A stretch of DNA of 7,618 bases from assembly GCA_001871015.1 (NCBI GenBank), contig MNUO01000102.1:1-7618 (forward strand), read 5' to 3'. This DNA is from Candidatus Desantisbacteria bacterium CG1_02_38_46 (lineage in GTDB: Bacteria > Desantisbacteria > UBA1551 > UBA1559). The stretch's first letter is position 1. Each line of letters begins with the position of its first letter. A model generated the notes under the pieces. The model was not told where the DNA came from and made no database searches. It saw only the letters and a program-made list of their open reading frames with translations. Made by a program: the position numbers and the translations under genes. This document shows positions 579 to 7,404 of this stretch, piece after piece.

Positions 579-2477
579 TTAAAAAAGTTCTTTCCAAAGT
601 ATATTACCATTTATAGTAGCCAAGTTTGCACTAGAGCCTGTCAAAGTTATTGTGTCACCGTCTTGCAATATAAGTTTCAAATCAAGTAAGCGTTCATTTA
701 TCTTGTCGTTCTTCCCTGCAAGTTGAAAAGACATCAACGTCTTCCCACCTGTAACAGTAATGCCTGCTGTATCGATACTTACTACAGAGTCAGTAGTATT
801 TATGTCAGAATAAAAAGGAGCCTCACCAAGTGTAGTATTTCTAACTAATCGAATTATACCGAGATTATTTGCTGATGATGCTTCAATCGATGCTCCAATA
901 TTTTCGATAAGAATAGGTATGAAGTTTGTCTTCCCAGCGTAGGAAGTTTTCACTTTAATTGTAAAAATAGCTACCTCACTTGTTACTGCGCTTTTTTGTT
1001 TTGCCCCTGAGCTAAATTGCGGTTGGTGTATTTCAGAAAGCTCTGACTTCCCCTCTATAAAATAAGCATACGAAGCTGATTTTACAACGATACTGTTTGT
1101 TGTTGCTCCGTTATCAGCAAATATAAAATAATGAAAGTTCGGATTATAAACCGAAGGAGATGTATTGAGGTTGGCATAGAGTATTTTGTGAAAGACTACG
1201 AAGTTTCCTGTTGAATCATCTTCTACAAAAAACTGAATAGCTCCTCCTCCGAGGTACTGAAAGCGAATCTCGAACACATTGAGTTTTGTGGTATCAATTG
1301 TCATTCCTGATGCTCCTGTTCCATCGAGTTTGTCATCCCACGAGTCCCGATTGACTTGAAACAAAACATCATTCTGAAATCGAGCGATACAAAGACTTGT
1401 CCCATTATATCCGATAGAAAAGCCATTCTTAAATGAAGCGGTACTCCCTAGCTCATCCATAATCCCCGCCCATTGAAATGTCCCTGCTACTGGAGTGGTA
1501 AATATAGCTGTGAATCGAAGTAATCCTCCAAGACCTGCCATGTATTTTGCATGTGTTTTTGATTTGAGAGATGCTTTCTTTCCTGCAGTTGTTGATGTAG
1601 TTACTACTGCCATTCCATTCGCCTGAGTGACGGTAGCTGGTGCAACAGCAGAGTTTTCGGTCAGCTCCGTATTGTCTACCGTATATTCGAAAGACCCCTG
1701 AAAAATAGGAGAGAGTTCAGCAGTACGAAGGTCTCCAAATGCAGTGAGTGGGAGTTTGTTTTTAAATGCAGTGAGGGTTTCTTCGGTAGCAAGTGTTTGG
1801 AGCTTTTCTGATTCAATTTGAGTCAATCCGCCACCTCCTCCACCAGCCCTATCAACATTAACTTTTAATCTTCCTAAGTCATCAAATTCAAATGGAATCG
1901 GTTCTTCTTCTGGTTTTGAATATATTAAAGAAAGTACATCAGAAATTGATAGAAGTAGTTTAGAGTAATCTACTGGTTCTTTTTTTGTTTTTATTGTGTC
2001 TACAATTTCAGAAAATAATGATGAATAATCCTTTATTTCAGACTTTTCTATTTTAGGTATTGCTTTCTTTAATTCTTCAAGTTTATCTGTTATTGATTTT
2101 AAATCGATAGTAACATCATTTTTTGCTGGATTTACTACTATTTCCTGAGTATCTTTTTCAAGAATATCTTTCAAAACAGATATAACATCAGTCATATCTG
2201 TTCTTGCCTGCTCTATATTTTTTACTGAAATAGTTTCAACTTCTTCTCTATTTTCTACCGCTTCCTGAACTTTATAGAGTGCATCAACTATAGGAGAAGA
2301 AATATCATCGGCTGAAACTATTGGTATTTCCTTGTTTTGGATTGCTTCAACTACGGGGTCAGAGATTTCCTTCGTATTTATTACCTTTGTAAATACAAAA
2401 TTATCTCTGAAAAATGCTTTCCAGTTAGCAAATATTTCCTTTGATAATCCACTGAAATCGAATGGTTTAGGTTCCAT
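579..2477 (-). CDS. Tail fibre / receptor-binding protein
   Basis: The product has 632 residues. Residues 1-200 are helical, acidic and AT-rich in codons, with short internal duplications: P41VVEAI and P62IVDAL are 21 residues apart, and D150YS and D170YS are 20 apart. This suits a fibre stalk or virion-attachment region. A six-glycine hinge (212-217) follows. From about residue 243 the protein becomes beta-rich. The segment starting TAFGDLRTAELSP, with later pieces such as GFSIGYNGT, LDGTGASGM and KLNVFEIRFQYLGGGAIQFF, matches from memory a phage fibre family frequent in environmental tailed phages. Residues 480-632 form a second beta domain ending NILWKELF, which I also associate with that family. 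It probably trimerises and binds the host surface. No intramolecular-chaperone endosialidase end or catalytic residues are evident. ATG 2477-2475 is the first start in the frame and lacks an SD; a possible promoter lies just upstream. Base composition changes sharply at the hinge, suggesting a swapped distal part. Confidence 0.85.
   Translation of the reverse strand: MEPKPFDFSGLSKEIFANWKAFFRDNFVFTKVINTKEISDPVVEAIQNKEIPIVSADDISSPIVDALYKVQEAVENREEVETISVKNIEQARTDMTDVISVLKDILEKDTQEIVVNPAKNDVTIDLKSITDKLEELKKAIPKIEKSEIKDYSSLFSEIVDTIKTKKEPVDYSKLLLSISDVLSLIYSKPEEEPIPFEFDDLGRLKVNVDRAGGGGGGLTQIESEKLQTLATEETLTAFKNKLPLTAFGDLRTAELSPIFQGSFEYTVDNTELTENSAVAPATVTQANGMAVVTTSTTAGKKASLKSKTHAKYMAGLGGLLRFTAIFTTPVAGTFQWAGIMDELGSTASFKNGFSIGYNGTSLCIARFQNDVLFQVNRDSWDDKLDGTGASGMTIDTTKLNVFEIRFQYLGGGAIQFFVEDDSTGNFVVFHKILYANLNTSPSVYNPNFHYFIFADNGATTNSIVVKSASYAYFIEGKSELSEIHQPQFSSGAKQKSAVTSEVAIFTIKVKTSYAGKTNFIPILIENIGASIEASSANNLGIIRLVRNTTLGEAPFYSDINTTDSVVSIDTAGITVTGGKTLMSFQLAGKNDKINERLLDLKLILQDGDTITLTGSSANLATINGNILWKELF
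1827..1844 (-). other. Six-glycine hinge of the tail fibre
   Basis: Six consecutive glycine codons (GGT, GGA, GGA, GGT, GGC, GGA in reading order) encode residues 212-217. They separate the helical stalk from the beta-rich distal part. Sampled rows of 60 bases on the stalk side are about 25% GC and on the distal side about 42% GC by hand count, so the hinge lies at or near a composition boundary. Confidence 0.6.
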
Positions 2478-2521: not shown

Positions 2522-5248
2522 TTACTTCTTGTTTTTGTTATAGACAAAGCGATATTCTCTAAAAATTTTATTTTTTTCATCCTCTTTTATTTTATCTGCT
2601 TCCTTTGACTGTTCTTCTGGAGTTTTATCTATAAAATCTTTTTGTTTTAATCTAGCTTGAACCTTATCATATACTGATTTATTATATTTTTTCTCAGCCT
2701 CATCTGTTTTTTCAACTCCAACAAATTCCCTGAACTGCTTAATCTTTTTTGCATCACTTTCAGCGAAGTTGAGACCATAATATACTTGGTTTTGAGACAT
2801 ACCGATTATACCAGGAATCTGGAGTAAATTCGGATTCTCTATGATACTCTGATAATACATAGGAACCATCCTATTAAATGCTTCTTTTTTTGCACCATCC
2901 TTAATAATAGCCATAGCTGCTTTATCTCCGCTTATCGCATTTTTTATATCATCTCTATCGGCTCCATTGAAAAATTTTTCCCCAACAGCGTTTTCTCCTG
3001 CAAAAAAATCTGCTACAAGAGCGGCATTTGGTGATAGTTTGTAACGTCCAGTCTGAATAATAGTTGACCCCATTGATGATTGACCATAGCCAGTTCCATA
3101 TGGTTTTAGAATACCCAATTGGTCTGTCTGTCCGCCTGCTAGTAATCGAGCAGCTAATGTTACTACCCAGTCAGAACCGCCAGATATATTTATCGTCTTA
3201 TCTCCAATTCTAGCATCTCCAAATTTTGAGCTTTTCGGGTCGTCAATAATTTCGACATCTTCACCTGCCATCTTCGCCATACGAATTAATGATGATATCG
3301 CAATATATGTTCCAACCATTGAACCAAATCTTACCAATCCTTCTGTGGCAATTATCTTTTCAGCCTTTGTCCCTTTGAAATAACGATAGAAATCTTTTAC
3401 TGGTCTAACAGTAACTTTTCGTATATCTGATATTGTTTTTCGTAAGGAAAACAAAACTTGATTGGCAATAGGAAGAGTATTTCCTTTTTCAACATATTTT
3501 CCAGGGCTTGATGCACCTGTAAAATCGTTTATTACCCTTCCGAGTTCTTCGAGTTCAGGTTTCCCAAAATCAGCTTTTGCATTTTTTAAGTTTGCATATC
3601 TCTTTTCAAAAGCGTCTACTCGCAATCTAGTAAGATACGAAGCCTGAAAACGACCAAAAAATTCTAGTTTTCCGATAGTTTTCAGTATAGGATTATCAGA
3701 TTTCTCCATATTAGCGAAAAGATTGCTCATCCATCCGTCTTCTTTCGCTGATAATTTTTTCTTATTCATCGTGAACATTAACTTGCTGGTCACCATATCT
3801 TTGTATGAATCCCTCGTGATAAAATCAGCAATACTCCTCTTATTATGTTCTATGCTATAAGCATCAAGTAAAGCACCTTTCAACGATTTCCATGCTCCGC
3901 CACCAGGTATTAAGAACCTTGAAACGTGCGCATATCCCTGTATCATGATAGGAGAAAACTCTCCAGTTGTCAGAAAAATTCTCATTGCACCAAGTACAGA
4001 TAAAGCGTGTTCTGTTTTTGTTGCTTTCGGAAGAAGTGTCTCTACATAATCTCTCATTTCTCCTTGTTTCAAGCCCCATTCTACTCTATCATCAAATTTT
4101 CCGCTATCAATAGCTTTCATTCGTAAATCTTCAATATCCATTGATATTTTTGATATTTGTTCTACCTGCTCGACTGAAACGTGAGACTTTCCTTTCACAG
4201 CTACCATATCTGGTATTTTTTTATCTATGAATGCTCTCATTGCTTGAATATCGGTTATTCTATTCAAATCACTTTCTATTTGTTTCGTGTATATCCCTTT
4301 TGTAGCATATTTCAATTTTATCATCACTTCCCTAGGGTTATCTACAAATCTGCTCAAAAAATCCAGTCGCTCCTTTTCTGGCATCAAAAGAATTTCATCA
4401 ATAGGCTTGTTTATTTTTTTCCTGAATGTAGAACCAGCTCCTTCAGAATAGAGATTTTTCTTTATAAAGTCTGTGATAATTCTTTCTTGAGATTTTACCT
4501 TTCTCATTTCATTTATCCTGAGAGCCTGTTCGCCCTTCGCTATAATGTCAGCTACTTTTGCCTTCATCATCCTTTCATTCACCATTTCAGCATCATCAAC
4601 TCCTATTGATTTCAGATATGATATGCGTTCTTTCTCCACCATTTCAGCAACATCATTTGCTGTTATACCTTTTTTAGTTTCACTAGGCTCCTTCTCTCCG
4701 AGTTTTGACTTTATATAGTTGTCAATTTTTTCCTTTTCACGATTAAGAAGCGATTGAGCTTTTGTCTCTGCTTTCTTCAAAGTTGCTACCTCTACCTGTT
4801 GCTTACGGACTATTTCAGCTGATTTCAATTGACTTTCTATTTCATTTATTTGGTCTTTATCGAAATATTTTCGTAGAAAATCCAGTCGCTCCTTTTCTGG
4901 CATCATCGAAACTTCTTTTCCAGTTTTCAGTATTGATTTTTCACTTACAGGAAGAAGTTTCTCCAGTATGTATTTCTTTATTGCTGTCTTTTGACTTTTA
5001 TCAAGATTTGCTATGATAGTCTTCTCATCGAAATTGCTCTTAAAGAAATCTCCTAGGGCACGTTTATTTTTGCTGATAAGTGCCCGTTCAAATTTATTAT
5101 TTATTGTTTTTGCCGAATCACCGAGATATTTCTCCCAGAACATCAATCGTTTTTCTGGTGATAAATTTACAAGACCAAGAACATCTCCATCAAGAGATTT
5201 TATACCATCAAGTATCTTTACCATTGTTTCTTTGGTAATGCAATTCAT
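2522..5248 (-). CDS. Large virion-associated protein with polyvalent-protein-associated domain
   Basis: The product has 908 residues. Residues 28-346 contain four degenerate repeats of about 86 residues, rich in Lys/Glu and helical. Residues about 410-765 resemble a large domain known from phage 'polyvalent' proteins (the LPD group, possibly LPD38; assigned from memory). Landmarks are TGEFSP near 428, a helical ELxxLGRVINDFTGAS region near 565-578, a hydrophobic stretch at about 640-660, DDPKSSKFGDARIGDKTINISGG at 669-691 (quoted in part: key residues D670, P671, S673, S674, F676, G677, G681, G690, G691), and KLSPNAALVADFFAG at 737-751. Residues 830-908 are a lysine-rich helical tail. Relatives are thought to travel in the virion and enter the cell with the DNA; the exact activity is unknown, and no catalytic residues are clear. 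ATG 5248 follows the upstream stop by five bases, in another frame, behind a run of A without an SD, so translational coupling is likely. Its own frame has a TAA at 5263-5261, so an upstream start is excluded. Confidence 0.82.
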   Translation of the reverse strand: MNCITKETMVKILDGIKSLDGDVLGLVNLSPEKRLMFWEKYLGDSAKTINNKFERALISKNKRALGDFFKSNFDEKTIIANLDKSQKTAIKKYILEKLLPVSEKSILKTGKEVSMMPEKERLDFLRKYFDKDQINEIESQLKSAEIVRKQQVEVATLKKAETKAQSLLNREKEKIDNYIKSKLGEKEPSETKKGITANDVAEMVEKERISYLKSIGVDDAEMVNERMMKAKVADIIAKGEQALRINEMRKVKSQERIITDFIKKNLYSEGAGSTFRKKINKPIDEILLMPEKERLDFLSRFVDNPREVMIKLKYATKGIYTKQIESDLNRITDIQAMRAFIDKKIPDMVAVKGKSHVSVEQVEQISKISMDIEDLRMKAIDSGKFDDRVEWGLKQGEMRDYVETLLPKATKTEHALSVLGAMRIFLTTGEFSPIMIQGYAHVSRFLIPGGGAWKSLKGALLDAYSIEHNKRSIADFITRDSYKDMVTSKLMFTMNKKKLSAKEDGWMSNLFANMEKSDNPILKTIGKLEFFGRFQASYLTRLRVDAFEKRYANLKNAKADFGKPELEELGRVINDFTGASSPGKYVEKGNTLPIANQVLFSLRKTISDIRKVTVRPVKDFYRYFKGTKAEKIIATEGLVRFGSMVGTYIAISSLIRMAKMAGEDVEIIDDPKSSKFGDARIGDKTINISGGSDWVVTLAARLLAGGQTDQLGILKPYGTGYGQSSMGSTIIQTGRYKLSPNAALVADFFAGENAVGEKFFNGADRDDIKNAISGDKAAMAIIKDGAKKEAFNRMVPMYYQSIIENPNLLQIPGIIGMSQNQVYYGLNFAESDAKKIKQFREFVGVEKTDEAEKKYNKSVYDKVQARLKQKDFIDKTPEEQSKEADKIKEDEKNKIFREYRFVYNKNKK
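4358..4386 (-). repeat. 29-base exact direct repeat, downstream copy
   Basis: This 29-base stretch is identical to 4877-4905. It encodes the MPEKERLDFL motif of the fourth repeat unit in the 908-residue protein. Identity extends through third codon positions, while the flanks differ at once. Confidence 0.9.
4877..4905 (-). repeat. 29-base exact direct repeat, upstream copy
   Basis: This copy is identical to 4358-4386, 519 bases (173 codons) away in the same frame. It encodes the MPEKERLDFL motif of the second repeat unit. Recombination between the copies would remove two whole repeat units without shifting the frame. Confidence 0.9.
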
Positions 5249-5253
5249 TTTTT

Positions 5254-7404
5254 TTATGTTTTACATATTAACGAATTGAGTATTCCTCTTGCGTCTTCAA
5301 TTTTGAAATCAAGTTCTTTTCTCATTATCTCAGTTTTCTTTATTATTTCACGCCTTGCATTTTCTCCACCTTCTTTCATATAGGCTTTCTTTATATCAAT
5401 AAGTATTTTTGATGGCGAAAATTCATTCAGAAGACTCCATGCTTGTATTCTCTGACCCATAGTGGTTGCTTCTTCTATAAGAGATGATTCGTTAGCTAAT
5501 CTTTCTAGGAGTGCATAGTCGCCCGACAAATCAGCTTTTTTTGCTAAATCTATAAATACTAACTCAGGAGGAATTCCATCTGGAGCAGAGGCACGACCCA
5601 TTGCTACATCGATGACCTCATTGGTTGGTGTATTATCAACAAAATCAGGGACTTTAGTTTGAAAAATCTTCTTTGTTTCCAATTGCTTATATGTAGGAAT
5701 ATCGAATGAATCCATTCCGCTAGCTAATGCTTTTTCTCTGACACTTCTTGCAGCACCACGCTCACGCTCAACTCCTGTACCAGTATATCCTTGTACTTTT
5801 GTTTTTTGTTCTGGAATAACAGGATTTTTCGTTGTAACTGGTTTTTCAACAGGATTTTGTGGAATAACAGGTTCTGTAGTGGTTTTCGGTTTATACCCAT
5901 CCAAAACATTAGCAATTTGAGAAGGGTCTTTCATTGGTGAAAAATCCTTTGCGACACTTGCTACTTCTTTCTCAGGAACAATACCAGTAATCATTTTGAC
6001 TATTGATTTCTCATTTTCAGTCTTTGAAATCTGAGTAGCTAATTTTTCTTTTTTTGCAGTAGGATTATATCCATCAAGAATATTTGCAACTTCATCTGGA
6101 TTTTTCACTAAAAATAATCGTTTTATCAATGCTGGTCTTTCTGCAACTGGTACAAAATCAGGAATAAGTTTTTCTATTTCAGTAGGAGTTTTCGCTAAAA
6201 CAATTTCAGAAGATACTCTTGTAGTTTCAGGAACATCAAAAATATCAGCTGATTGAATATCAGAATTTCCAAAATAATTATCAGTAGCCCTGACTATCTT
6301 ATCTGTGTCAAGATTAACTTTAGCATTATCAGCCTCGTTGATGATTGATTTTATGACATCATCCTTTGACGCTCCATTAAAAACAGATTTTGTAATCTGT
6401 TTCGTTTCTGTACTACCTAGCTTATGACCAAGCAATTCTTCTGCCGCTTTAATAGTATTTCTTGCTTCTGTAACAGCCTCTGCTCCAGCTCGTTTATTCG
6501 CTATAGAGCTTGATATTTTACTTGTAGCACCCGTAACTATCTTACCTAAAGTATGAAGAGCAATACCACCGCCAATGCCAAATACAGTACCTTTTGCAGT
6601 TGATTTTGCGAGGTCTAATGCCCCTTGATTTTGTTGCATACCTGTAGCTAGTCCATATCCAGCACCATATCCAGCCCCACCAGCTACTAATGGATTTTTT
6701 ATCAGATTCGTCAATCCAGCCTTAGAAATCAATTTATCACCTTTTAATATCCCTTTTTTCCCAAGCGATTCCATTCCCTGCTTTATGATGATATCTGTTG
6801 TTTCAGCGGTAATTTTCCCGCCTCCTTTTTTGATAGCTTCATCGACACCTTGCTTTCCGAGTATCCGAGAACCTTCTCTAAATATTTCTCCAAAAGTTTC
6901 TGGACCATATCTTTTTACTGAATCTAATACTAATTTTTTACCAGCATTGGCTAATATTCCTTCCAATGGTGAAAGAATAGTAGCAAAAATATCAACAGTG
7001 TCCAATAATGCTCCACCAGCGAGTTGTTCTTTCGTTATATCACCTTTTGCATAAGCAGTATTCCTTTCATACCCACTTCTCTGTACACTTTTAACTTCAT
7101 TTCCGAATACATTTACCGAAACATCAGTTGGAATATTATTCTTCTTTATATAATTATCTGGTTGGAATAATTCACCGATTGACAACCCTGTTTTTACAAC
7201 AGGTGACAAAACCATCCCAGGAATTTCTTTTGCAAAATTTGCAATACCACCGACAAAAGCACCTATCTTCTCATAAGCAGATGGTTCTGGAGTAGGAGTA
7301 TGAGTAGTTGCGGAATTTTCATTGTATGGTATCCACCTACCGCCAACTTGCGACTCTGACCCGTTATCTCCTTGAATTGTTTTTTTGTATGGAACCCACG
7401 GCAT
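5254..7404 (-). CDS. Large virion-associated (internal / polyvalent-type) protein
   Basis: The product has 716 residues. The N-terminus carries a short duplication (WVPYK near residue 3, WIPYN near 24), then a Pro/Thr linker. Residues 45-80 and about 240-290 are glycine-rich and hydrophobic or amphipathic (for example GGAGYGAGYG and GTVFGIGGGIALH), as in phage internal proteins that meet membranes during DNA ejection. Residues 403-506 are four 29-residue repeats, and 507-535 are a proline-rich linker. Residues about 540-690 match, from memory, a module shared by giant phage proteins: GYTGTGVERER, then APDGIPPELVFI, then EEATTMGQRIQAW. The end is Lys/Glu-rich helix. No protease, muramidase or nuclease motif is recognised. 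ATG 7404 follows the previous stop by 13 bases with no SD (leader ATAAATCAATAT). The next gene begins five bases after the TAA. The two proteins probably work together in the particle; a lytic-transglycosylase role is not supported by visible residues. Confidence 0.8.
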   Translation of the reverse strand: MPWVPYKKTIQGDNGSESQVGGRWIPYNENSATTHTPTPEPSAYEKIGAFVGGIANFAKEIPGMVLSPVVKTGLSIGELFQPDNYIKKNNIPTDVSVNVFGNEVKSVQRSGYERNTAYAKGDITKEQLAGGALLDTVDIFATILSPLEGILANAGKKLVLDSVKRYGPETFGEIFREGSRILGKQGVDEAIKKGGGKITAETTDIIIKQGMESLGKKGILKGDKLISKAGLTNLIKNPLVAGGAGYGAGYGLATGMQQNQGALDLAKSTAKGTVFGIGGGIALHTLGKIVTGATSKISSSIANKRAGAEAVTEARNTIKAAEELLGHKLGSTETKQITKSVFNGASKDDVIKSIINEADNAKVNLDTDKIVRATDNYFGNSDIQSADIFDVPETTRVSSEIVLAKTPTEIEKLIPDFVPVAERPALIKRLFLVKNPDEVANILDGYNPTAKKEKLATQISKTENEKSIVKMITGIVPEKEVASVAKDFSPMKDPSQIANVLDGYKPKTTTEPVIPQNPVEKPVTTKNPVIPEQKTKVQGYTGTGVERERGAARSVREKALASGMDSFDIPTYKQLETKKIFQTKVPDFVDNTPTNEVIDVAMGRASAPDGIPPELVFIDLAKKADLSGDYALLERLANESSLIEEATTMGQRIQAWSLLNEFSPSKILIDIKKAYMKEGGENARREIIKKTEIMRKELDFKIEDARGILNSLICKT
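5887..6198 (-). repeat. Four 29-residue repeats in the 716-residue protein
   Basis: Units start at residues 403, 432, 461 and 490. The shared pattern is K-x-P-x-(E/Q)-(I/V)-xx-(L/I)-(L/I)-x-(G/D)-(Y/F)-x-P. The landmark Gly/Asp-(Tyr/Phe/Ile)-x-Pro falls at 416-419, 445-448, 474-477 and 503-506, exactly 29 apart. Units two and four are closest (NPDEVANILDGYNP and DPSQIANVLDGYKP); unit three is the most degenerate (ENEKSIVKMITGIVP) and unit four is cut short by the proline-rich linker. Codons differ between copies, so the duplication is old or diverged. Confidence 0.75.

Follow-up and report, generated by a model that had tools for sequence, protein, structure and literature searches.

Among the described systems closest to the protein analyzed here are the internal virion, DNA-ejection proteins of phage T7, and sections of a review on ejection proteins report that a hydrolase domain can swap between such proteins (PMC8954989). 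A further point of comparison is provided by the phage polyvalent proteins, which are encoded among virion genes and injected, and whose domain LPD38 has been listed as phage-only (PMC5512222). The stretch of DNA examined in this study (the window; 7,618 nt) encodes on its reverse strand a protein of 908 aa (2522..5248), in which an N-terminal array of four units is followed by an element B and by a conserved core, over which relatives align with E values down to 3e-54. We assume that this is probably an internal virion, DNA-ejection protein of a short-tailed phage, which would act together with the 716-aa product of the adjacent gene and whose N-terminal helical segment would have been lengthened specifically in this lineage. 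Two elements of this proposal go beyond what had previously been read from the letters of the sequence: the repeated unit is the amplified form of a unit that is single-copy in the protein family, and the genes around it suggest an ejection protein of podophage type.

The sequence-only reading of this locus had described four repeats of about 86 residues, marked by a (S/M)xEKxR(L/I)x(F/Y) motif and by an aromatic-Ile landmark. The first Glu of the motif is indeed found at residues 32, 118, 205, and 291 of the CDS. The motif itself is literally present in units 2–4, whereas unit 1 reads SPEKRL and is one residue short. The second landmark recurs as proposed (Y93-I, Y178-I, F261-I, and F340-I). 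A self-alignment of the protein, which had been recommended as a check, bore out the periodicity: the strongest self-similarity occurs at offsets of 173 (score 69) and 87 (score 42) residues, both above the 95th percentile of shuffled sequences (39; best 25-residue ungapped match), and two separate four-way blocks are significant. These blocks were identified by an exhaustive ungapped search in which each unit could slide freely, and were evaluated against 300 shuffles that kept the composition. The first block, at 27/113/200/286 (VNLSPEKRLMFWEK, VSMMPEKERLDFLR, VAEMVEKERISYLK, and ILLMPEKERLDFLS; spacing 86, 87, and 86), has a score of 164 (z=10) that none of the 300 shuffles reached (57.2 +/- 10.7, maximum 97). 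The second consists of 14-mers around the aromatic-Ile landmark at 85/170/253/332 (SQKTAIKKYILEKL, REKEKIDNYIKSKL, SQERIITDFIKKNL, and TDIQAMRAFIDKKI; spacing 85, 83, and 79) and scores 99 (z=4.4), again above all 300 shuffles (54.4 +/- 10.1, maximum 81). Similarity between distant units is mainly confined to their first ~45–50 residues.

Direct searches for relatives of the 908-aa protein were unsuccessful. None were found by tblastn against phages, by scanning viral and genome contigs with the single protein, or by a scan with an alignment of two units, and neither 98 relatives nor 285 genomes from a small-genome phylum yielded a homologue when searched directly; a match to Brevibacillus phage Sundance (E=1) was taken as chance. 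Relatives came to light when the core stretch FGxxx(I/V)G(D/N)xx(I/F)(D/N)x(S/T)GG was converted into a degenerate DNA pattern and used for searching. This pattern retrieved 50 viral contigs, nearly all of which contain relatives according to blastp, and alignment-based scans extended the set to 167 non-redundant relative ORFs (loci denoted here by the letter L). The nearest of these (L068, L039, L070, L071, and L072) share 25–29% identity in the core (E 3e-54 to 4e-40). Six family loci were found in bacterial assemblies, including Saccharibacteria, Paceibacterota, and WWE3, but these contigs may be phage fragments binned with a host, so that no host range can be deduced from them. Where the N-terminus is intact, relatives consist of a leader, one unit A (~95 aa, consensus IDPEKLAEMTSEERRELLEKIVGEENAKEVNALFESKLLLKNQQQGLINWAKKVAGIKPEAKRDLLSKIEKLDKVLNPKEEEAFLEDLAAKKLGV), element B (VTLEEAKKISELAKK onwards), and a core of ~460 aa. 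The window protein fits this A-B-core family by its core stretch, by collinear alignment, by the presence of A, by the position of B between A and the core, and by a partner of the 716-aa type upstream. Its element B (residues 357–405, 4034..4180, reverse strand; 20.3 bits) is single-copy as in the relatives, and its core (residues 406–908, 2525..4033, reverse strand), aligned with those of the relatives, contains the conserved DPxSSxFG...(I/V)G(D/N)....(S/T)GG stretch. A helical repeat array thus precedes a conserved phage domain, as the sequence-only reading had envisaged, and its statement that it knew of no described repeat family with this motif agrees with the lack of matches in any library searched.

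An A profile made from the relatives alone, with the window protein excluded, matches exactly four places in the N-terminal part of the 908-aa protein (residues 25–63, 112–159, 194–227, and 284–329). Scored as separate pieces, copy 1 (residues 21–107, 4928..5188), the best match to the head of the family A, reaches 24.5 bits (shuffle p <0.0005), copy 2 (108–193, 4670..4927) 10.8 bits (p 0.001), copy 3 (194–280, 4409..4669) 11.2 bits (p 0.0005), and copy 4 (281–356, 4181..4408) 7.1 bits (p 0.005), all on the reverse strand; 477 natural windows taken from elsewhere in family proteins all scored lower. Among the units of the window protein itself the second landmark is significant, but in this region the relatives' profile matches the tail of unit 4 only. 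The four-fold repeat of ~86 residues is thereby confirmed both within the protein and against an independent profile. By comparison, all 62 relatives with a recognizable A have a single A and no second full copy, so that within this sample a multi-copy A is private to the lineage of the window. The A of L068 scores as two pieces (profile positions 1–51 and 45–104), which represent one A with an insertion. No A was detected in 104 further relatives, among them longer or cut ORFs with other N-termini. A separate length change in the N-terminal region was seen in L018 (10779–12953), where ~70 residues are inserted within element B. No support was obtained for A and B being repeats of one another (hhalign probability 1%).

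The outer ends of the array provide clues to its origin. Copy 1, the best match to the family A head, is preceded by the leader typical of the family, and the tail of copy 4 matches the end of the family A together with its transition into B (10.5 bits, reached by 0 of 2000 shuffles); the tails of copies 1–3 do not match the A-tail profile. This pattern is as expected for an amplification inside a single A in which the outer ends were kept and the internal copies drifted. In addition, a tract of 29 nt (TGATGCCAGAAAAGGAGCGACTGGATTTT) is exactly repeated in units 2 (4877..4905, reverse strand) and 4 (4358..4386, reverse strand), 519 nt apart; no other exact direct repeat in the window is as long. 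Codon shuffles gave at most 17 nt, and in 1000 synonymous-codon permutations a length of 29 was never reached. Outside this tract, the DNA of the two units shares only 20–50% ungapped identity. The tract would be best accounted for by a short and recent intragenic exchange between units 2 and 4.

Structure prediction, also recommended by the sequence-only reading, answered in part. A single-sequence model of the array (residues 1–399) is of poor quality (pLDDT 49); in it, the motif of the units lies in a helix, after which comes a long helix. Because an alignment of 79 rows with the window protein first spread the A of the relatives over the four copies, the relative L039 was selected for a second model. 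This AlphaFold model (47 sequences) is mainly helical, with a pLDDT of 82.8 and a pTM of 0.73. Its A comprises a short helix, an amphipathic helix, and a long helix (25–29, 33–44, and 46–75) as well as two less certain helices, a pattern that resembles the window units in the low-confidence model, and its B forms a helical hairpin. No fold match to the L039 model at E <=0.001 was found among solved structures in the PDB, nor was a sequence match to solved ejection proteins. The rows of VIA-align were discarded; for the most part they covered only the two-helix element B and unrelated helical hairpins.

Directly upstream of the 908-aa gene lies the 716-aa gene (5254..7404, reverse strand). The last ~200 residues of its product (5263–5850) are conserved in 33 ORFs, nearly all of which are located directly upstream of a family gene, and in L108 the partner and the family gene are fused into one. 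In the window, the stop codon of the 716-aa gene is found 5 nt before the start of the 908-aa gene within a run of eight A (ACATAAAAAAAATG, 5246–5265), and an obvious ribosome-binding site is absent at this junction. A programmed frameshift joining both genes was considered but is not favored: the overlap amounts to just a few codons (TGTAAAACATAAAAAAAATG), and relatives have the same close two-gene arrangement, which is why we prefer two separate genes. Neither protein has a significant match in Pfam or PHROGs. Downstream of the 908-aa gene, a 632-aa virion structural or fibre-type protein is encoded (579..2477, reverse strand; phrog_1645, E 4e-33). Residues ~236–594 of this protein match the cyanophage virion structural family phrog_1645 and also the 485-kb uncultured phage LR745208 (34%), and its N-terminal part (residues 10–234) matches a gene downstream of the family copy in L039. 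In a relative phage, the fibre-type protein (L148, 1065–3437, reverse strand) carries RCC1-like beta-propeller repeats (PF00415, E 1.8e-40) after a tail-protein N-terminus. The source contig C8 has 8797 bases in an assembly of 1.73 Mb and 133 contigs; a run of N is present at ~7613–7627, right at the end of the window, and the remainder up to 8797 contains an Ala-rich 289-aa ORF and a 93-aa ORF.

The window contig covers only the fibre-type side of the family gene, and the side on which portal and tail tube genes would be expected lies beyond its 8797 bases. The broader context can be seen in L068, the relative with the best score, whose contig measures 41 kb. Here, a portal (PF12236, E 1.6e-42), a 266-aa scaffold-like protein, and a major head protein (phrog_3437) are followed by the tail proteins phrog_394 and phrog_376 (E 3.5e-102), a GNAT protein, a 210-aa protein with weak similarity to gp14 (phrog_418, E 0.0022), proteins of 526 aa and 715 aa (the latter 716-like), the family protein (668 aa), and a fibre-type protein. 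We take this order to be the late gene order of T7, with the pair of 716-type and family genes occupying the gp15/gp16 slot. T7-type portals are encoded on the contigs of three relatives, and L071 has a C-terminal SLT transglycosylase domain and matches phrog_342, annotated as internal virion protein with endolysin domain. A search for the tail tube family PF17212 gave no match, but no control gave a signal either. Furthermore, contig C56 of the same assembly (6215 bases) encodes a terminase large subunit, a P22-type portal (PF16510, E 7e-21), a scaffold-like protein, and a major head protein at a GC content similar to that of the window contig (35% against 36%), and is a candidate for the head module of the phage to which the window belongs. 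The late order in L068, the SLT domain of L071, the conserved and once fused 716-type partner, and the possible head module on C56 form the basis for regarding the 908-aa protein as an ejection protein.

Other interpretations have to be weighed against this one. According to the first, to which we would grant some but clearly limited plausibility, the protein is a polyvalent (conflict) protein, whose core would be the LPD38-like part of a multi-domain effector delivered by injection and whose array would serve as spacer or as binding module for host targets. The sequence-only reading had used the label "polyvalent-type," and at the level of fold this label retains some merit: in Foldseek searches, the L039 model matched predicted viral proteins annotated as "Large polyvalent protein associated domain-containing" (E 7e-6 and weaker, TM 0.37). 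Based on these matches, a fold common to the family and to polyvalent-type proteins is possible even though no link between them is seen with profiles, and the late-gene setting, the injection, and the phage-only status of LPD38 mentioned above would also be compatible with this view. At the sequence level, however, LPD38 was rejected as a relative. Its model (PF18857) matches neither the window protein, judged by the curated cut-off, nor anything in the window's own genome, and a profile comparison with LPD38 proteins was negative (hhalign probability 0.3%). Moreover, searches of Pfam and PHROGs found no enzyme domain in the 908-aa or the 716-aa protein and thus none of the two or more disparate activities expected of a polyvalent protein, and neither an enzymatic nor another polyvalent domain was seen in these proteins or in the aligned relatives. 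It should be noted that this interpretation overlaps with that of an ejection protein, as both assume an injected virion protein.

A tail tape-measure or scaffold-like protein, in which the number of repeats sets a length, would likewise be helical, repeat-bearing, and encoded in a tail or late module, and for L071 there is a weak match to phrog_4197 (E 0.0027), a profile that bears the name tape measure. The podophage portal and T7-like tail proteins of L068 imply, however, that there is no long tail to measure, and the single A in the relatives argues against the repeat number being a general ruler in the family; we therefore regard this function as very unlikely. Even less credible, to the point of being hardly worth assuming, is that the repeats merely reflect chance mimicry by Lys/Glu-rich helices or an artefact of assembly. 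The composition is indeed rich in K and E, distant units share mainly one short block, and the exact 29-nt tract could stem from a k-mer join. Yet composition-keeping shuffles never attain the four-way scores, the profile built without the window protein detects the same four registers, and the divergence of units 2 and 4 outside the tract is incompatible with duplicated reads.

If the 908-aa protein is an ejection protein, it would take the position of T7 gp15/gp16 and work together with the upstream 716-aa protein. Its ancestor would have had an N-terminus with one helical A (a short helix, an amphipathic helix, a long helix of ~30 residues, and two more), followed by the two-helix B and the core. 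Unequal recombination within A could then have generated four tandem units of ~86 residues, thereby extending the N-terminal helical part by ~260 residues into an array that may be rod-like; a rod or scaffold had been suggested by the sequence-only reading. The protein would be packed in the head and expelled ahead of or together with the DNA as part of a transient conduit, where the extra units might add length to a helical stretch that either packs onto partner subunits or spans the envelope. A more specific and rather improbable extension of this scheme is that A is a copy-number-variable spacer of the conduit, whose count sets the reach and is tuned by intragenic recombination to the host envelope; if this were true, the length or reach of the ejection machine would be a function of the repeat count. 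The apparent expansion from one to four N-terminal helical units in one lineage represents a natural length variant, which could serve to test how such segments affect the distance that the ejection apparatus can span. Beyond this case, a large family of probable phage virion proteins, unrecognized by Pfam and PHROGs in the members scanned, has become visible, as have its partner gene and the position it occupies in the late module.

Similarities and differences to known systems are found at several levels. Like T7 gp14/gp15/gp16, the family is largely helical and has partner proteins encoded in a row, and in L068 its gene likewise lies between the tail tube genes and the fibre; in contrast, there is no detectable sequence or fold match to solved ejection proteins. 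The lytic transglycosylase domain of T7 gp16 has a counterpart in L071, there at the C-terminus, whereas the window protein lacks an SLT domain. An array of four units does not feature among the ejection proteins in sections of the review cited above (PMC8954989). With LPD38 (PF18857) and the polyvalent proteins the family has in common the late-gene context and perhaps, judged from the L039 model, a fold resembling that of annotated predicted proteins, but significant profile similarity is missing and no conflict enzymes are attached to the window protein. The closest counterpart is the unnamed A-B-core family itself (for example L039, L068, L070, L071, L072, and L053), with which the window protein is collinear over B and the core at 23–29% identity and shares the upstream partner; its members have one A and a median length of ~640 aa, whereas the window protein has four A units and 908 aa.
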